A stretch of 43,894 nucleotides of DNA, from the IMG/VR virus record IMGVR_UViG_3300028920_000125, positions 1-43,894 of that record, one strand, 5' to 3'. This DNA comes from a virus. Position numbers and translations under genes: made by a program. Shown in pieces: positions 2,984 to 26,090 of this stretch (position 1 is its first letter; each line of letters begins with the position of its first letter). The notes beneath the pieces were generated by a model. It ran no database searches and was not told the origin of the DNA. It saw only the letters and a program-made list of their open reading frames with translations.

Positions 2984-3136
2984 ATGAGGAAAAGGCAAGT
3001 CCACGCGTCAATCGACGAAGAAACCAAAGCCAAGCTCAAAAAGCTGGCAAAACGTGAGAACCGGAGCTTATCTGGCCAGCTTCGCCATCTCATCAAGCGT
3101 GCGCTGATGGCCGTCAGCGAGTCAAAAGGAGAGTAG
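2984..3136 (+). CDS. Ribbon-helix-helix (CopG/Arc-type) DNA-binding protein
   Basis: This 50-residue gene is preceded by AGAGGT. The protein begins with a short basic strand (RKRQVHASI), then helix one (DEETKAKLKKLAKREN), the turn RSLSG, and helix two (QLRHLIKRALMAV), the layout of a minimal ribbon-helix-helix dimer in which the strand reads the DNA. Such proteins repress phage or plasmid promoters. Plausible targets are the inverted half-sites at the two early promoters or the perfect palindromes at 15480-15493 and 24020-24036, but target assignment is inference. It is flanked by unknown small genes in the same operon. Confidence 0.75.
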   Translation: MRKRQVHASIDEETKAKLKKLAKRENRSLSGQLRHLIKRALMAVSESKGE

Positions 3137-7613: not shown

Positions 7614-7676
7614 ATACGCCAAAATACGCCAAAACAGCCCTTGAAATGTACTCTGAAATGGCGTATATTTATAGTA
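7614..7676 (+). promoter_or_regulatory. Early promoter copy 2 with duplicated operator half-site; +1 on the start codon
   Basis: TTGAAA (7641-7646), a 17-base spacer, and TATATT (7664-7669), then six bases and ATG 7676, exactly the geometry of copy 1 at 929-964. Half-site ATACGCCA occurs twice in tandem (7614-7621, 7624-7631) and inverted as TGGCGTAT (7659-7666), overlapping the -10. The core GCCCTTGAAATGTAC and the first coding bases ATGGAAAGA are conserved between copies. Confidence 0.8.
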
Positions 7677-7936
7677 TGGAAAGAAACACCACAACCCAAG
7701 CGGAGAGAGAAAAGATGGTAACGAAAGAAATGCAGGCTTACATGACTGAGATCGTCAAAGAGCGCGGAATCACGCAGGAAACGTTCACCAAGGAAGTTTG
7801 CGGCGACGTCATGAAAGAGGCTGTCCGCCGGATGGACCGCGCAATCAGCCGGGCCAAACAGTCTGAGACGTTTTATCACAACTTTACTAGCGTGCTTTAT
7901 CTGAAGATTGTGGCTCGCGCTGCACTGAACGCCTAA
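7676..7936 (+). CDS. Helical hypothetical protein, first gene of second early operon (leaderless start, internal start possible)
   Basis: From ATG 7676 this gives an 86-residue protein beginning MERNTTTQ, matching the MERATTT start of the HExxH gene at 964. A second in-frame ATG at 7715 follows GGAGAGAGAAAAG, a good Shine-Dalgarno, so both a leaderless and a leadered start are possible; the short form is 73 residues. The body is helical and charged (EMQAYMTEIVKERGITQETF, EAVRRMDRAISRAKQS). No DNA-binding or enzyme motif is certain. It opens the second early operon. Confidence 0.65.
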   Translation: MERNTTTQAEREKMVTKEMQAYMTEIVKERGITQETFTKEVCGDVMKEAVRRMDRAISRAKQSETFYHNFTSVLYLKIVARAALNA

Positions 7937-19356: not shown

Positions 19357-21274
19357 ACGGTCAACGTGGAAGACAAACATTCGCTACCGCTTCGGCATTG
19401 ACGAGGCGGTAGACGATGACGTCCGGCGCGTGTTCACGAGGGCCGACGACCGGCTGAAATCGTATGTGCCGGCAAACATTGTTGATTGGGTGCAGGAGAA
19501 CTACACGCCGGATTGGTCAGACGAGCCGATCCAGCTCGAACCCTACCAGATAGAGCCGATGCAGGCACAGGTAACGCCTGGCGTCGAAGAAGTGATAATC
19601 GTCGGGCCGGAGCGGTTCGGAAAGTCGACAATTCCCAGATGCGGCATGCTGTACAAGATGGTCTTCCATCGAGGGCCAAAACTGATCATCTACGAGGAGA
19701 AGAACAAGGCCGCAAGCATCAACATGCGCGAATTTCATCCAGCGGTGTTGAGCGTCCCGGAGCTGCGGCGGCAGATCGAGGGCAAGTGGAAGGCACGGGC
19801 CAAATCGTACGACCTGAAAAGCTGCACGGTCGACTTTACCGGCGCTGGGGCAGATATTACGTCAACCTCGGCGCGCGACGTGTGGGCAGACGAGTATGAC
19901 ACGTGGCCGTTAGTCGATGAAAAACGTCGCGCGCAGATGCAGAACGTCCGCAAGCGTATGAGGCTATGGCGCAACCGCGGCGAGGGCTCGCTCGTGATCT
20001 GTTCGTCCGCGAAAGGAACGGAAGACGACTCGTCTATTTGGCTGGAATACGCGCCAATGCGCGACGGCGACAACCTGATTCCGCAATCGTCCATGGGCCT
20101 ATGGCATCTACGCTGCCAGGGCTGCGGGGAATTGATCGACTCGACACAGATCGACGGTGTCTATGACAAGCAAAAATCAGAATTCCGCGGGGGTCTGCAT
20201 TGGGAGAAGAACGGGCAAATCATCATTGAGGAATCTATCCGGCTCGTGTGCAGGCATTGCAAGCATGAGCACAAACAGCACGAATCCGCAAAGATGAACG
20301 CCGAGGGCGAATACGTCCACGCCTACCCGGAACTTGTTGGAAGGCGTCCCGGATATCTGTTTGGCTCGCTGTCATCGTTGCGGGCGCTGTCCTGGCTACA
20401 GATCGCCGAAGCTCGCCGGAGTGCTGCACATGACAAATCGTTTGAGACGCAGCGGACGTTCCACAACTCATTCCGGGGCGTGGCCATGCCGTTGGGCGAC
20501 GCGTTGCGCCAGGCAGACAAGCAGGCGCTGATGCAGCATTGTCGACCGGTTGCGATTACGGCAGACGAAATCATGGCAGTCATCGCAGCGGCGGACACGC
20601 AGGAATCTCCATGGGGCTGGTTCTGGATTGTCCGGGCGATCGATAAGGATTGGAACACTCACCTACTCGCCGTAGGATTTGCACCGTCGAAGGCGCAGAT
20701 TGAAGAAGTGCTCTGCAACGCGCGTTATCACGGGCGGCCGGTGGACTATGCAATTATCGACCAGGGCGGAACCAATGCCGACGACGTCAAGGCACTGGCA
20801 GAAGCGCACAGCAATATCTACCAGTACAAAGGCTCGTCTAATCCAAGATCGCTGTGGCATTGGTCGAAAAGCTCAGATCAATGCAAGCTTCTCATGTGCG
20901 ACGCGTCGCGCCTTCAGGTCATGCTTCTTCGGAGTCTCTACGATCAGGCAGAGACCAAAGAAAACCATTACATGTTTTTGCCCCCAGCGACCGACGTGCC
21001 GAGCGATGACGATCCGGTCTATGACTATCTTACGCACGTTGTCGCGGTGCGCGACCTTGCGAACGGCGTCCATTCACATCTCCGCCAGAATTGGACTTGC
21101 GGCGGCCGGGAGAGGCGCGACTTTTTCGACGCGGAGAAGATGATTCAAGTTTTGCCGTTGGTGTTCCAGCGGGAGATCCAAAACATGATCGACAACGGCG
21201 GCCAGCGGAAGCCGGTCAAGCTTTCCGAAGTCCAAGCCGCCAAACGCGCACAGCAGAGGAGAACAGGGCCATGA
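19346..21274 (+). CDS. Terminase large subunit, lambda GpA family
   Basis: This 642-residue protein matches GpA-type size and layout. The ATPase part has Walker A GPERFGKST (residues 87-95) and a Walker B-like DVWADE (178-183), followed by a motor coupling region (CSSAKGTEDD). A zinc-binding insert (CQGCG ... CRHCKHEH, ~254-312) is usual for this family. The C-terminal nuclease part contains the acidic strand YAIIDQGG near residue 470. The enzyme packages concatemeric DNA into the prohead and cuts it; lambda relatives make cohesive ends. The short matching ends of this contig would suit such cutting but do not prove it. Confidence 0.9.
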   Translation: MNAKRSTWKTNIRYRFGIDEAVDDDVRRVFTRADDRLKSYVPANIVDWVQENYTPDWSDEPIQLEPYQIEPMQAQVTPGVEEVIIVGPERFGKSTIPRCGMLYKMVFHRGPKLIIYEEKNKAASINMREFHPAVLSVPELRRQIEGKWKARAKSYDLKSCTVDFTGAGADITSTSARDVWADEYDTWPLVDEKRRAQMQNVRKRMRLWRNRGEGSLVICSSAKGTEDDSSIWLEYAPMRDGDNLIPQSSMGLWHLRCQGCGELIDSTQIDGVYDKQKSEFRGGLHWEKNGQIIIEESIRLVCRHCKHEHKQHESAKMNAEGEYVHAYPELVGRRPGYLFGSLSSLRALSWLQIAEARRSAAHDKSFETQRTFHNSFRGVAMPLGDALRQADKQALMQHCRPVAITADEIMAVIAAADTQESPWGWFWIVRAIDKDWNTHLLAVGFAPSKAQIEEVLCNARYHGRPVDYAIIDQGGTNADDVKALAEAHSNIYQYKGSSNPRSLWHWSKSSDQCKLLMCDASRLQVMLLRSLYDQAETKENHYMFLPPATDVPSDDDPVYDYLTHVVAVRDLANGVHSHLRQNWTCGGRERRDFFDAEKMIQVLPLVFQREIQNMIDNGGQRKPVKLSEVQAAKRAQQRRTGP

Positions 21275-21942
21275 ATCGCGAGCGGCAAAAAAAAATCACC
21301 GAGCTGAAAAAACAAATACACCAGGAATGTATGGAAATCGAAGAAGCGGCAAAAGCGGACATTGCAGAAATACGCGAGGATGCACGCCGTAAAAAGGCGG
21401 TTTTGCAGCGCCGCGTCACGCAGCTACGGCGAAAAATGGAAAAGGAAGATGCCGTAGAGCGAGCTATAGAACAAGCAACTGCCAGCGGGGCAAGGTGGGG
21501 CATAAGTGGCGGCGTGCGGCATCTTGTCAGGGGGAAACGGGCGGGGGCAAATTACGAATACTATACAGCATGCGGCAAACGGTATTATCGTTCGATAGTA
21601 GCAAGTTATGCCTCAGAAGCGATTGTGTGCAAAGACTGCTTACGCGTGGCAAAAGTCAAAGGCTGGCGGGAAGCGTGGCAGGACAAAACGGAGGGCATCC
21701 CAGATTACCTTTGGGATTGGCACGTTGAAGAGTTGGACGATATTAGCGATTGGGCAGTCGCCAAACGCGCAATAGGAGCGATGGGCGAACGATGCCAACG
21801 TGTAATAAAAATGCGATGGGGGCTTGAAGGTCAGCCAAGAAGTTTGCTTGAAATTGCGTCAGAAATAGGCGTCAGCACCAGCCGCGCGTGGCAAATCTAC
21901 CAGAACGTGCTAAAGCAGTTGTCCAAAACGCTGGAGGTCTGA
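21271..21942 (+). CDS. Sigma region 4-like HTH protein with coiled coil and zinc ribbon, candidate late regulator
   Basis: This 223-residue protein has a coiled coil at residues 1-70 (ITELKKQIHQECMEIEEAAK), a zinc-ribbon-like part at 84-123 (H84, CGK at 101, CKDC at 120-123) and, at 168-222, a segment matching sigma70 region 4: RCQRVIKMRWGLEG, then LLEIASEIGVSTSRAWQIYQ. Region 4 contacts the -35 element. Regions 2 and 3 are absent, so it is not a complete sigma factor; an activator that works with host polymerase, or an ArpU-like late regulator, is more likely. ATG 21271 overlaps the TerL stop. It precedes the late promoter by 2 kb. Confidence 0.7.
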   Translation: MNRERQKKITELKKQIHQECMEIEEAAKADIAEIREDARRKKAVLQRRVTQLRRKMEKEDAVERAIEQATASGARWGISGGVRHLVRGKRAGANYEYYTACGKRYYRSIVASYASEAIVCKDCLRVAKVKGWREAWQDKTEGIPDYLWDWHVEELDDISDWAVAKRAIGAMGERCQRVIKMRWGLEGQPRSLLEIASEIGVSTSRAWQIYQNVLKQLSKTLEV

Positions 21943-22204: not shown

Positions 22205-22381
22205 ATGCCCGGCATCGAGTGCCCACGCTGCGGCTGTAAGGACCTACGCGACGATCGCGGACTCCCTGCATGGGAGGTCATCAAGACAATGAAAGGCAAC
22301 GGGCATATTCGGCGGCGTCGGCGCTGTCGGCATTGCGGCAAATACGTATACACACGAGAAAAACTGGAGCAAGATCAATGA
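22205..22381 (+). CDS. NrdR-like zinc-ribbon protein
   Basis: This 58-residue protein shows CPRCGC, then DDRG...W, HIRRRRRCRHCGKYVYTRE. CPxCG, a D-R pair, RRRRxCxxCG and T-x-E match the N-terminal zinc ribbon of NrdR, the ribonucleotide-reductase repressor, but the ATP-cone that follows in NrdR is absent. A stand-alone ribbon could bind DNA or compete with host NrdR at its boxes; this is inference. It overlaps the next gene by 4 bases. Confidence 0.6.
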   Translation: MPGIECPRCGCKDLRDDRGLPAWEVIKTMKGNGHIRRRRRCRHCGKYVYTREKLEQDQ

Positions 22382-22599: not shown

Positions 22600-22860
22600 A
22601 TGAAGATAACCATAGACCGCATATTTACCGGGAACGACCCGCGCTGCATAACCTTGCGCGCCGGAACATGCGTCCATGCTAGGCGCATGAGTATCGTCAT
22701 CAAAACCCGCCCGTTTTGGCAACGACTTCTCCGCACACCGGCGACATTCTTCAGGTTGTGTCGGTCTGGCGGCAGCTGGAGTGAGATTGCAGGCTGTGTT
22801 TGGTGGCTATTGACCACAAAAAAGACCAACCAAAAGACGGACATGGAGGCTGGAGAATGA
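22600..22860 (+). CDS. Hypothetical protein
   Basis: This 86-residue basic protein starts one base after the previous stop and overlaps the glycosyltransferase by 4 bases. It has several Cys and Trp residues in a moderately hydrophobic segment (EIAGCVWWLLTTKK). No motif is recognised; start choice is uncertain because no strong Shine-Dalgarno is visible and internal ATG 22687 is possible. Confidence 0.5.
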   Translation: MKITIDRIFTGNDPRCITLRAGTCVHARRMSIVIKTRPFWQRLLRTPATFFRLCRSGGSWSEIAGCVWWLLTTKKTNQKTDMEAGE

Positions 22861-23810
22861 AAATCCTACATTTATGCAATCGGTTCACCGGGCGCGTATG
22901 GAAAGAGGCGTCGGTACTACAGGCAGACGGCCACAAGATCGTGGTACTGTTTCGCGAAATGGCTGTCCGCGGGACAGACTCAGATATCCTGTATATGTCC
23001 AGATGGGACACGCCCGAAAGGCTGCACCAAAAACTGGCGGCGATCTGTCCGGGGATGGACGCTGTGCATGTGCACACGTCCTTGACGGCATTGGACATGC
23101 CTGCGTATGCGCTAAATCATCACGATAGGGTCGTGTGGGACGTACACGACTGGAGCGCCGAGGTCAAAGCGGCAGTTGAGGGAATCGGGCCGGGCGTGAC
23201 CTATATTGCGCCAGGCTCAAAACTGGCGGCGACTGTTGGCGCGACTGCACGAACTACGCACACGCACATTGTCGCGTCGAAAGTTCCACGGCGTTACCAC
23301 ATCACGCCGTCGAAGCAAGACGCGCGAACAATCGCGCTAAACTCGGATATTGACATCGCTCCAGCGTGGCGCAACTATCAGCCGGTACAGAAGATGTTTC
23401 TTGAGCACGGGTTTCGGTTTGACATTTTCCCGGCGACACAGAGCCCGCGCATGCAGGCGCACTATTCAAGACTGATGCAATCGCTGAACTATCTGTCACT
23501 TCTTCAGGAATTGAGTCAGTACGGATGGAATTACGTCGGGGCGGCGAACCGGACGGTACGGATTGACAATTGCGTGACCCATAAATTCTGGGAATCGTTG
23601 GCGGTGGGCGTGCCTGTCATCACCTGGCAGTCGGCTGAGATGCGCTTCTTAGCGCTCGGAATAAGCGTGGATCTTGCAGAGCCAGAAGCGCTGGAGAAGA
23701 TTGCCGATCCAGGCGTCCGGGCTGAGTGCGCCGCGGAGCTGACGCACCGCCAGCACGAGTTCGCCATGGAATGTGAAATACCGAAAATCATCCAAGCATA
23801 TGGAGGATAG
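22857..23810 (+). CDS. GT-B glycosyltransferase (family GT4-like)
   Basis: This 317-residue protein begins with the Rossmann start MKILHLCNRFTGRVWKEASV. It carries DAVHVHTSLTALDM in the N-terminal domain and the donor-side signature HKFWESLAVGVPVITW near residue 245, in which the Glu of the E-x-x-A-x-G-x-P motif contacts the nucleotide sugar in GT4 enzymes. It could glycosylate phage DNA, a virion protein or a host surface glycan. A second glycosyltransferase lies in the late operon (41907). It ends the middle unit, just before the control region. Confidence 0.8.
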   Translation: MKILHLCNRFTGRVWKEASVLQADGHKIVVLFREMAVRGTDSDILYMSRWDTPERLHQKLAAICPGMDAVHVHTSLTALDMPAYALNHHDRVVWDVHDWSAEVKAAVEGIGPGVTYIAPGSKLAATVGATARTTHTHIVASKVPRRYHITPSKQDARTIALNSDIDIAPAWRNYQPVQKMFLEHGFRFDIFPATQSPRMQAHYSRLMQSLNYLSLLQELSQYGWNYVGAANRTVRIDNCVTHKFWESLAVGVPVITWQSAEMRFLALGISVDLAEPEALEKIADPGVRAECAAELTHRQHEFAMECEIPKIIQAYGG

Positions 23811-23868: not shown

Positions 23869-23887
23869 GGCCGTCTAAATGACGGCC
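23869..23887 (-). terminator. Hairpin with U-tract on the minus strand
   Basis: GGCCGTC (23869-23875) pairs with GACGGCC (23881-23887) around TAAAT. Read on the minus strand it is followed by TTTTTAT, a proper rho-independent terminator; on the plus strand there is no U run. It could stop antisense transcripts entering from the late region. Confidence 0.55.
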
Positions 23888-23956: not shown

Positions 23957-23978
23957 TTTTGGCTACATATAGCCAAAA
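23957..23978. promoter_or_regulatory. Perfect 9-base-arm palindrome in the late control region
   Basis: TTTTGGCTA (23957-23965), CATA, TAGCCAAAA (23970-23978). It is AT-flanked and lies 25 bases upstream of the late promoter's -35, a normal place for an activator site. No gene covers it. Confidence 0.55.
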
Positions 23979-24002: not shown

Positions 24003-24036
24003 TTGACGTGTCGCGAAATACTGCAAATATTGCAGT
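24003..24036 (+). promoter_or_regulatory. Late promoter with palindrome over the -10; start codon at +1
   Basis: TTGACG (24003-24008), a 17-base spacer, and AATATT (24026-24031), with ATG 24037 five bases beyond. The palindrome ACTGCAA-ATA-TTGCAGT (24020-24036) covers the -10 and touches the start codon. No Shine-Dalgarno precedes ATG 24037, so a leaderless or one-base-leader message is indicated. Confidence 0.7.
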
Positions 24037-24267
24037 ATGCCTACAGCAGCAACAATGATTAGCGCGATCGATACAGCGATCTATGAGATCACTGTCAAAA
24101 AGGCCGAAAGCTGGGAAATCGGCGACACGCGTTATACTGCGTTAGATCTGGACCACTTGCGTCGGCTACGCAATGAGTATCTGCAGGAAAAGGCATCTAC
24201 CGATGCGACCGCCAGCAATAACGCACCGTTTGGCATCACAGGCCTATCAGCAGGGAGCGGGAAATGA
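24037..24267 (+). CDS. gpW-like head-tail joining protein
   Basis: This 76-residue protein has an N-terminal helix (SAIDTAIYEITVKKAESWEI), the hairpin GDTRYTALDLDHLRRLRNEY, and a disordered Ser/Thr/Ala tail. Helix, beta-hairpin (with the Y-T-ALDL pattern) and second helix is the fold and signature of lambda gpW and related DUF6148-type proteins. In lambda, W lies between terminase A and portal B, and here the gene directly precedes the portal, overlapping it by 4 bases. gpW binds the portal after packaging so that tails can attach. It is the first gene of the late operon. Confidence 0.75.
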   Translation: MPTAATMISAIDTAIYEITVKKAESWEIGDTRYTALDLDHLRRLRNEYLQEKASTDATASNNAPFGITGLSAGSGK

Positions 24268-26090
24268 GCAAGCTTCTCAGGGCGCGGGCAAATCAACTGC
24301 GCAAAACCAAGCCGCGGCAAGTGGTAAGGGTCGGCTTTGACTCGACGGCGGACAACCGCAACACCGCCAACCATTGGGCAGACGCAAACGGGCAAGACCT
24401 GAACACGCTGATTTACGGCAGCCGCAAGGCGATGGTGAAGCGCTGCACGTATGAGTACCGCAACAACACCTACGCCAAGGCCATTATTGATCAGCTTGCA
24501 AATCACGTCGTGGGGCGGCACGGACCAACGCTCCAGATGCAAACGGAAAATCCGGAATTCAACGCCGAGGTTGAGGAGAAGTGGCAGGCGTTCGCGAAGA
24601 AGCTTGATTCGCGCGGCCGTCAAGATCTTGGGGCAATGCTGAGGACCGACATTAAAGAGACCTGCGTCCGCGGCGAATCCCTGGCGACCCAAAAGTCAGC
24701 CAAAACGACGCAGCAAGCACCCGCTCTCCGGATCATGAGCATCTCACCGGACCGGCTAGACAGCCCGATGGGCGACCCAATGACCGCAGATGTTCAGGAC
24801 GGGATCAAATACGACATGGACACCGGCGCGCCAGTCGCATACTCAATCCTGAAGAGCAACCCGAACAACATGCTGCTGACGCCAAACCTGGACGTTGATT
24901 GGGTACCTGCCGAGAAGATGAACCATATCTTTTTTGAAGACGAAGCCGAGCAGGGCCGCGGCGCGCCGCCGCTACAGGCAGCGCTGCCGATACTCGCCTA
25001 CCTCCGCCGGTACACGCTGGCAACCGTCGCCGCTGCAGAGCAAGCCGCGAACATCTCCGGCATCGTCTATACTACGCTTGGGCAGGTCGATCAGGACATG
25101 ATATCCGCGATGGACGAAATAGAGATCCCCAGGAACGCCATGCTGACTATGCCGCGCGGTTGGCAGATGGACCAGATGGACGCCAAGCACCCGACGACGC
25201 AATACAAAGATTTCAAGGCCGAATTGGTCGCGGAGGCCGCGCGATGTGTTATGATGCCCTATTTGGTCGCTGCCGGAAACGCCGCTGGCTACAACTACAG
25301 CTCGGGCCGCCTAGACATGCAGGAGTTCTGGTCAGCAACAGAGATTATCCAAGACATGCTGGCGACTCGTAAATGTGACTGGATTTTTGCTGCGTGGCTG
25401 CGTGAGGGGCTGATGATTCCTGGCTATTTCCAACACGCAAACGCGGACATTCGTCGTGCGCCGGCCGAGACCATATCACACGTGTGGAATTGGGCCGGCG
25501 CACGGCATGTGGACCCACAGAAGGAAGCAAATGCCGCGCAAACGCGACTCGAATCCGGGCTGACTACGCTCGCTGCAGAATACGGCGCTCAAGGCAAAGA
25601 TTGGGAGCGCGAAATGGAGCAGCGGTTACGCGAAGAAGCACGCGAAAAGGAACTCCGCGAAGAGCTTGGGTTGACAGAAGAACCAGAACCAGAGCCAGAG
25701 CCAGAGACCGAACCAGAGACCGAAGAAGAGACGCAAGAGCCCGAACGCAACAGCGACGAGCTGCAAAGCCTACGTGCCGAGATCGAAGAGCTGCAGGCGT
25801 TACGCGACGAAATCAAAGAGCTGAAGAACCAGCCGGAACTGGTGCCATCCATGCAGCGGGCCGAGCTGCAAGCATTACAGGAAGAGCTGGAAGCAGTCAA
25901 ACAACAGAGATCGGCCGCCGCGTCATTCGCCTATCAGGGCGGCACAATCTACCGCAACGAAGATGGCGTATGTTTTCACACGGTCAACGGCGAAATTGAG
26001 CAGGTACCGGATGGAATGGTTTGTATTGACGACACCGGAACGCACTACGAAGTCATCGGCGGCAAGATGGAGGAAATCAAGTGCCACTAG
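24264..26090 (+). CDS. Portal protein, lambda GpB family, with long C-terminal extension
   Basis: This 608-residue protein's first ~430 residues follow lambda-type portals: basic N-terminus, YRNNTYAKAIIDQLANHVVG, SPDRLDSPMGDPM, NHIFFEDEAEQGRGAPPLQA and the clip/crown region ending at MIPGYFQHANADIRRAPA. After ~460 comes an unusual tail: an acidic Glu/Pro repeat (EEPEPEPEPETEPETEEET), a coiled coil (SLRAEIEELQALRDEIKELK) and a small beta domain (YQGGTIYRNEDGVCFHTVNG). Portal forms the dodecameric DNA gate. The extension may project inside the capsid or bind scaffold. No separate scaffold gene is evident. Confidence 0.9.
   Translation: MSKLLRARANQLRKTKPRQVVRVGFDSTADNRNTANHWADANGQDLNTLIYGSRKAMVKRCTYEYRNNTYAKAIIDQLANHVVGRHGPTLQMQTENPEFNAEVEEKWQAFAKKLDSRGRQDLGAMLRTDIKETCVRGESLATQKSAKTTQQAPALRIMSISPDRLDSPMGDPMTADVQDGIKYDMDTGAPVAYSILKSNPNNMLLTPNLDVDWVPAEKMNHIFFEDEAEQGRGAPPLQAALPILAYLRRYTLATVAAAEQAANISGIVYTTLGQVDQDMISAMDEIEIPRNAMLTMPRGWQMDQMDAKHPTTQYKDFKAELVAEAARCVMMPYLVAAGNAAGYNYSSGRLDMQEFWSATEIIQDMLATRKCDWIFAAWLREGLMIPGYFQHANADIRRAPAETISHVWNWAGARHVDPQKEANAAQTRLESGLTTLAAEYGAQGKDWEREMEQRLREEAREKELREELGLTEEPEPEPEPETEPETEEETQEPERNSDELQSLRAEIEELQALRDEIKELKNQPELVPSMQRAELQALQEELEAVKQQRSAAASFAYQGGTIYRNEDGVCFHTVNGEIEQVPDGMVCIDDTGTHYEVIGGKMEEIKCH

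Follow-up and report, generated by a model that had tools for sequence, protein, structure and literature searches.

NrdR is the repressor of the ribonucleotide reductase (RNR) operons and combines a zinc ribbon with an ATP-cone, and the Ogr/Delta proteins of the P2-type phages are zinc-finger late activators, which act from an upstream dyad site. The sites of NrdR are 16-bp palindromes bound by pairs of ribbons, in which two key GC pairs lie 10 positions apart, while specificity is set by residues D15 and R17 at the recognition turn of the protein (PMC9110341, PMC12051234), and these boxes are arranged in pairs, 15–16 or 25–26 bp apart, before the RNR genes (PMC12051234). At the T4 genes e, soc, 49, and I-TevI, start-site hairpins delay translation through the silencing of the read-through RNA (PMC3014915). 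No earlier description of late-gene control in planctomycete-group phages was found in the open-access literature, and this control appears to be undescribed so far.

The DNA analyzed here, referred to as the window, is a virus record of 43,894 nucleotides, and the coordinates of its main features are collected in Table 1. No close phage was found in the annotated phage collection, where portal identity reached at most about 27%, a DNA similarity search against phage records returned no match to the window, and no viral sequence close to the portal, terminase, or capsid turned up in single-protein scans. Relatives were found only by profile searches of IMG/VR and of Planctomycetota, Kiritimatiellae, and Lentisphaerae genomes, with a portal identity of 38–45%, and given the presence of these relatives in the genomes of the three groups, the host probably belongs to one of them. 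The comparison set consists of 198 non-redundant loci (L numbers in the text). The gpW-like gene was identified by a weak profile match (4e-4 to 1e-3), a co-linear alignment, and its place between terL and the portal. The HTH gene listed between terL and gpW had no homologue among the 89 loci compared, and it may possibly encode a second regulator. The same interval contains a gene (22857–23810) for a 317-aa protein, which is glycosyltransferase-like by eye and had no Pfam match. The intergenic region before gpW is 171 nt long and includes two palindromes. We consider it likely, from comparisons of sequence, that the promoter before gpW drives the late genes of a planctomycete/PVC-group phage under an NrdR-like ribbon-and-box activator, with a gpW that is probably leaderless and with the palindrome over the -10 as a lineage-specific extra.

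Table 1. Coordinates of the features discussed in the text.
Feature	Position	Strand	Remarks
Virus record IMGVR_UViG_3300028920_000125	1-43,894		uncultivated, 43.9 kb
terL	19346-21274
Gene with C-terminal sigma-70 region-4-like HTH, terL-gpW interval	21271..21942	+	PF04545 E=2.2e-7
Free-standing zinc ribbon of the NrdR type, 58 aa (CPRCGC...RRRRRCRHCGKYVYTRE), putative activator of the late operon	22205..22381	+
Intrinsic-terminator-like hairpin GGCCGTC-ATTTA-GACGGCC-TTTTT	23869..23887	-	would stop leftward, not rightward, transcription
16-bp late box TGGCTACATATAGCCA, proposed operator	23960..23975		pattern NNNCTANNNNTAGNNN; leave-one-out profile
-35 hexamer TTGACG	24003..24008	+	35.5 bp from late-box centre
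Perfect palindrome ATACTGCAA-ATA-TTGCAGTAT spanning the -10 and the AT of the ATG	24018..24038		lineage-specific
-10 hexamer AATATT (4/6)	24026..24031	+
gpW-like head-tail joining gene	24037..24267	+	weak matches to PHROG 118 and 5774; alignments; synteny with terL and portal
Portal, second late-operon gene	24264..26090	+	phrog_21 portal 7.5e-63

The late box is found upstream of gpW in the closest relatives, where it presents the core CTANNNNTAG and arms that are self-complementary but variable (for example, GTGCTATATATAGCAC, ATGCTACATGTAGCAT, and GGTCTATATATAGACC). In the window, the inverted repeat around the box extends to 23957–23978 (TTTTGGCTA-CATA-TAGCCAAAA). The pattern NNNCTANNNNTAGNNN, with at least seven of eight pairs, occurs upstream of gpW in 20 of the 198 loci (80.5 kb, searched 180–600 nt before the gpW stop) and nowhere in the 2.32 Mb elsewhere in the loci; it was drawn from about a dozen loci, and roughly half of the 20 matches are independent of the definition, an origin which leaves the zero elsewhere unaffected. 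With a leave-one-out weight matrix, the box took first place among all sites of its locus in 15 of the 18 clade phages and second place in two more, and that of the window ranks first among the 43,878 sites in the record. Enrichment was likewise observed for related cores, at 19-fold for CCA, 29-fold for ACA, and 5-fold for CGA. The exact GGTCTATATATAGACC sequence has seven matches in viral contigs, of which three are copies of phages of the set and four lie outside the system, and these therefore contribute no new independent members. No second NrdR box was seen by eye 31–32 bp from the first.

This box, which was not mentioned in the earlier note, appears from these comparisons to be the conserved control element of the late promoter, rather than the palindrome over the -10. 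The latter lies outside the conserved switch, given that it is missing in L252, the closest relative, in which the box and a -35-like hexamer are retained with an identical spacing and gpW has a leader and a GAGG Shine-Dalgarno; the palindrome is also missing from the other close relatives compared.

The promoter is organized as TTGACG-17-AATATT-5-ATG (24003–24039), with GCAGT between the -10 and the ATG, and the bases of both hexamers, of the spacer of 17 nt, and of a gpW ATG without a Shine-Dalgarno are all as they had been described. A consensus match of 9 of 12 is weak when taken alone, with 16 such sites in 19 kb against 9.9 expected, and the late promoter is credible because of the comparative data and not of the consensus score. 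The presence of a promoter before the structural operon is supported, and its -35 has a phased offset from a box that related phages share. This offset, measured from the centre of the box to the first T of the -35, is 35.5 bp in the window, L016, L098, L253, and L101, and also in L252, with a weaker TTGCGC; it is 45.5 bp in L099, L105, L044, L049, and L131, 46.5 in L102, 44.5 in L100, and 23.5 in L264, which has an 18-nt spacer. A TTGAC motif lies at 34.5–36.5 or 44.5–46.5 bp in 10 of the 20 loci, against a mean of 0.14 and a maximum of 3 in shuffled downstream sequences, and many GC-rich relatives have no TTGAC at the phased distance. One-turn steps in the offset are expected of a protein that stays on one face of the helix while in contact with the RNA polymerase, and in different promoters the box was found upstream of the -35 on the same face of the DNA, as for a class I activator. 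Given this position and helical phasing, an activator fits better than a repressor.

The start of gpW at 24037 aligns column for column with the gpW starts of the relatives (for example, MADYAAIITAID in L016 against MPTAATMISAID), and this alignment ruled out an alternative start codon at 24055. The start codon, which is also the predicted +1, lacks a Shine-Dalgarno, a signal found in 71 of the 88 modelled genes when counted at four bases or more. The leaderless geometry that had been proposed for this promoter recurs in three relatives, given that the start codon, counted from the first T of the -35, is reached after 34 nt in the window, L101, and L104 (with TTGCTT, a poor -35, in L104) and, as a GTG, after 35 nt in L253, and all four of these gpW starts are without a Shine-Dalgarno. 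Leaderless expression of gpW is thus a plausible reading of the window; it is no rule of the group, because other relatives have the same box and promoter 150–250 nt farther upstream, before a leader with a terminator-like hairpin.

Hairpins of this type, followed by a run of T, were observed in the leaders of L016, L097–L100, L102, L103, L105, L131, L162, L264, and L282, and in some leaders, such as that of L103, the 5′ strand of the hairpin (GTGTGG) has two CCACAC strands downstream as alternative partners, in the manner of an attenuator. The leader hairpins had no Rfam match among the members searched, and Rfam searches of the window region and of 12 relatives were likewise empty. The strong minus-strand hairpin of the window (Table 1) faces leftward, though all the modelled genes are on the plus strand, and it was ruled out as a forward terminator, its plus side being without a U-run; it is possible that it marks an antisense RNA, or that it acts as a guard against antisense transcription. 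Two near-identical early promoters (929–966 and 7641–7678) present the arrangement TTGAAA-17-TATATT-6-ATG, without a Shine-Dalgarno, and are flanked by ATACGCC / GGCGTAT repeats, the starts at 964 and 7676 being predicted to be leaderless. At the start of the record, a hairpin with a T-rich tail (858–895) follows the presumed lysis genes, which suggests that the contig is circularly permuted and that the late operon ends there.

The proposed activator ends after its zinc ribbon and has no C-terminal ATP-cone. It matches PF22811 (Zn_ribbon_NrdR) with an E-value of 6.6e-5, below the curated cut-off, and the same family is matched by 21 of the 28 aligned homologues, the best at 2.5e-12, with 19 of the 28 matching the NCBIfam NrdR. 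A profile search of the PDB returned NrdR chains among the best matches, second only to a ribosomal L33 chain, and the top 12 matches of a fold search were all NrdR, with probabilities of 0.99–1.00 and E-values of only 0.02–0.2, obtained with so short a model (pLDDT 74). In the window, the ribbon has diverged from the family and carries an insert in its recognition turn, and the Ogr/Delta family is absent from the 13 Pfam families matched by the 28 ribbon members. Homologues are present in 120 of the 198 loci, mostly upstream of gpW, and each of the 19 clade loci that extend far enough upstream encodes the ribbon; L252 is truncated in this part, and the copy in L131 is weaker and apparently broken. 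The box lies 9–45 bp after the stop of the ribbon gene in several clade loci, and 1.6 kb from this gene in the window.

The ribbon and the box also vary together. All 11 ribbons with a Y[LVI][KR] recognition turn are paired with the CGA core, which is found with none of the 40 others, and the LPV ribbons pair with the ACA core in five of six cases, these classes having been defined after a first look at the list of boxes. On the portal tree, the trait changes at least five times, and the five independent contrasts all agree (sign test 0.0625, the smallest value that five pairs can give); as the ribbon gene and the box are often neighbours, their joint exchange could yield co-variation without direct recognition. 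More than half of the ribbon-bearing loci are boxless by the criteria used (68 “none” rows, with duplicates removed, from 120 loci). The phage boxes share the length and the two GC pairs of the NrdR box. On balance, the evidence leans toward a recognition turn and an operator core that diverged together, with the free-standing NrdR-type ribbon as the late activator in a large set of planctomycete, kiritimatiellote, and related phages.

The reading as an NrdR-like activator is preferred because of the conserved box, the phased -35, the ribbon in every covered clade phage, and the co-variation. The ribbon encoded at 22205–22381 would bind as a dimer to the box at 23960–23975, the centre of which lies about 70 bp before the start point, and beyond binding it would help the RNA polymerase to use the promoter at 24003–24031, which would drive gpW, the portal, and the structural operon, presumably late in infection. 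The transcript probably starts at or next to the gpW ATG, and gpW would then be read from a leaderless mRNA, while the palindrome over the -10, a lineage-specific extra, may form a hairpin that keeps the read-through RNA from being translated.

This palindrome is perfect and covers the -10, as the earlier note had stated, and it is longer than was described there, with 9-bp arms, a length of 21 bp, and an end inside the ATG. Inverted repeats with fully matched 9-bp arms and a loop of 3–8 occur in 0.29% of the 48-nt stretches of the window and four related sequences, and the placement of this one is thus unlikely to have arisen by chance, though not astronomically so. Its most likely role is that of an RNA hairpin that silences the read-through, a private repressor site being less likely. 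The palindrome may, tentatively, act as RNA, whereby the hairpin hides the start codon in the read-through transcript and the RNA started at the promoter, without the 5′ arm, is translated, which is compatible with the ribbon activator as an added layer. When the read-through RNA is folded, the stem takes up the A and U of the ATG (unpaired probability 0.02–0.07), and in the leaderless RNA the A is free (0.997); there is no convincing forward terminator between the upstream genes and gpW, and T4 gene e provides a precedent (PMC3014915). However, the three start-codon nucleotides of the window are no more occluded than in the range given by upstream-shuffled sequences, 18% of which are as low. 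In L253, a different inverted repeat (AGTATAA-N7-TTATACT) lies over the -10 and touches the GTG start, which is fully occluded when the read-through RNA is folded, and the same placement with a different sequence suggests an RNA structure, although L101, L104, and L017 have no start-site inverted repeats.

The earlier note had placed on this palindrome a repressor that holds the late genes off; such a repressor, of the phage or of the host and acting early in infection, we regard as unlikely. A perfect and rare 21-bp palindrome over the -10 is what would be expected of a repressor site, and the early region encodes a candidate repressor, a 50-aa ribbon-helix-helix protein of the Arc/CopG-like type (2984–3136). 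The palindrome is, however, single-copy in the record, and its absence from L252, despite the kept box and spacing, and from the other close relatives leaves the proposal unsupported. The exact 18-base pattern has five matches in viral contigs, and the three examined (L002–L004) are unrelated phages, unlinked to the system.

It is very improbable that the NrdR of the host reads the late box, so that late expression follows the dNTP level of the cell. The length of the box and its two GC pairs resemble those of NrdR boxes (PMC9110341, PMC12051234), but a single box is found here in place of the known pairs, the outer arms and cores vary among the phages and track the phage ribbon, and NrdR boxes overlap or adjoin the promoter and repress it. 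A DNA-bending or packaging site beside the terminase and head genes that plays no part in transcription is scarcely probable, given the fixed and helically phased distance from the box to the -35-like hexamer and the gpW start in several phages, even though the box lies between terL and gpW and NrdR ribbons kink DNA sharply.

If the ribbon-activator reading is true, the DNA-reading half of a repressor of nucleotide synthesis was turned into a phage switch, the co-varying pairs of ribbon and box would offer a ready code for the choice of DNA by NrdR-type ribbons, i.e., a natural specificity series, and the late box would be a simple marker for late promoters in uncultured phages.

The phage system is like NrdR in its zinc-ribbon DNA-binding domain, with an RRRR-like motif and a specificity turn around residues 15–17, and in its palindromic site of 16 bp, in which the GC pairs are spaced by 10 positions. 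It differs from NrdR in that the phage ribbon has no ATP-cone and the target is a structural operon, with one box and not a pair, located upstream of the -35, in the position of an activator, and not over the promoter. Like Ogr/Delta, the phage ribbon is a small zinc protein and, as proposed here, would switch on late structural operons from an upstream dyad, but the zinc domain and the site are different, and the position is about -70/-80. The window resembles the T4 e, soc, 49, and I-TevI genes, whose hairpins have a late promoter inside, in that its promoter is set in a palindrome, which may hide the start codon in the read-through RNA only, whereas the promoter of the window is sigma-70-like, its start has no Shine-Dalgarno and is probably leaderless, and the read-through is putative. 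Finally, the order of terL, gpW, portal, and protease/capsid is that of the lambda-type gpW/portal head operon. Among phages whose capsids are related, gpW starts within about 15 nt of terL in those of Rhodobacter, Pseudomonas, and Microcystis, and one small gene lies between the two in a Stenotrophomonas phage, whereas in the window an insert of about 2.8 kb, with additional genes and a new promoter, stands between them.
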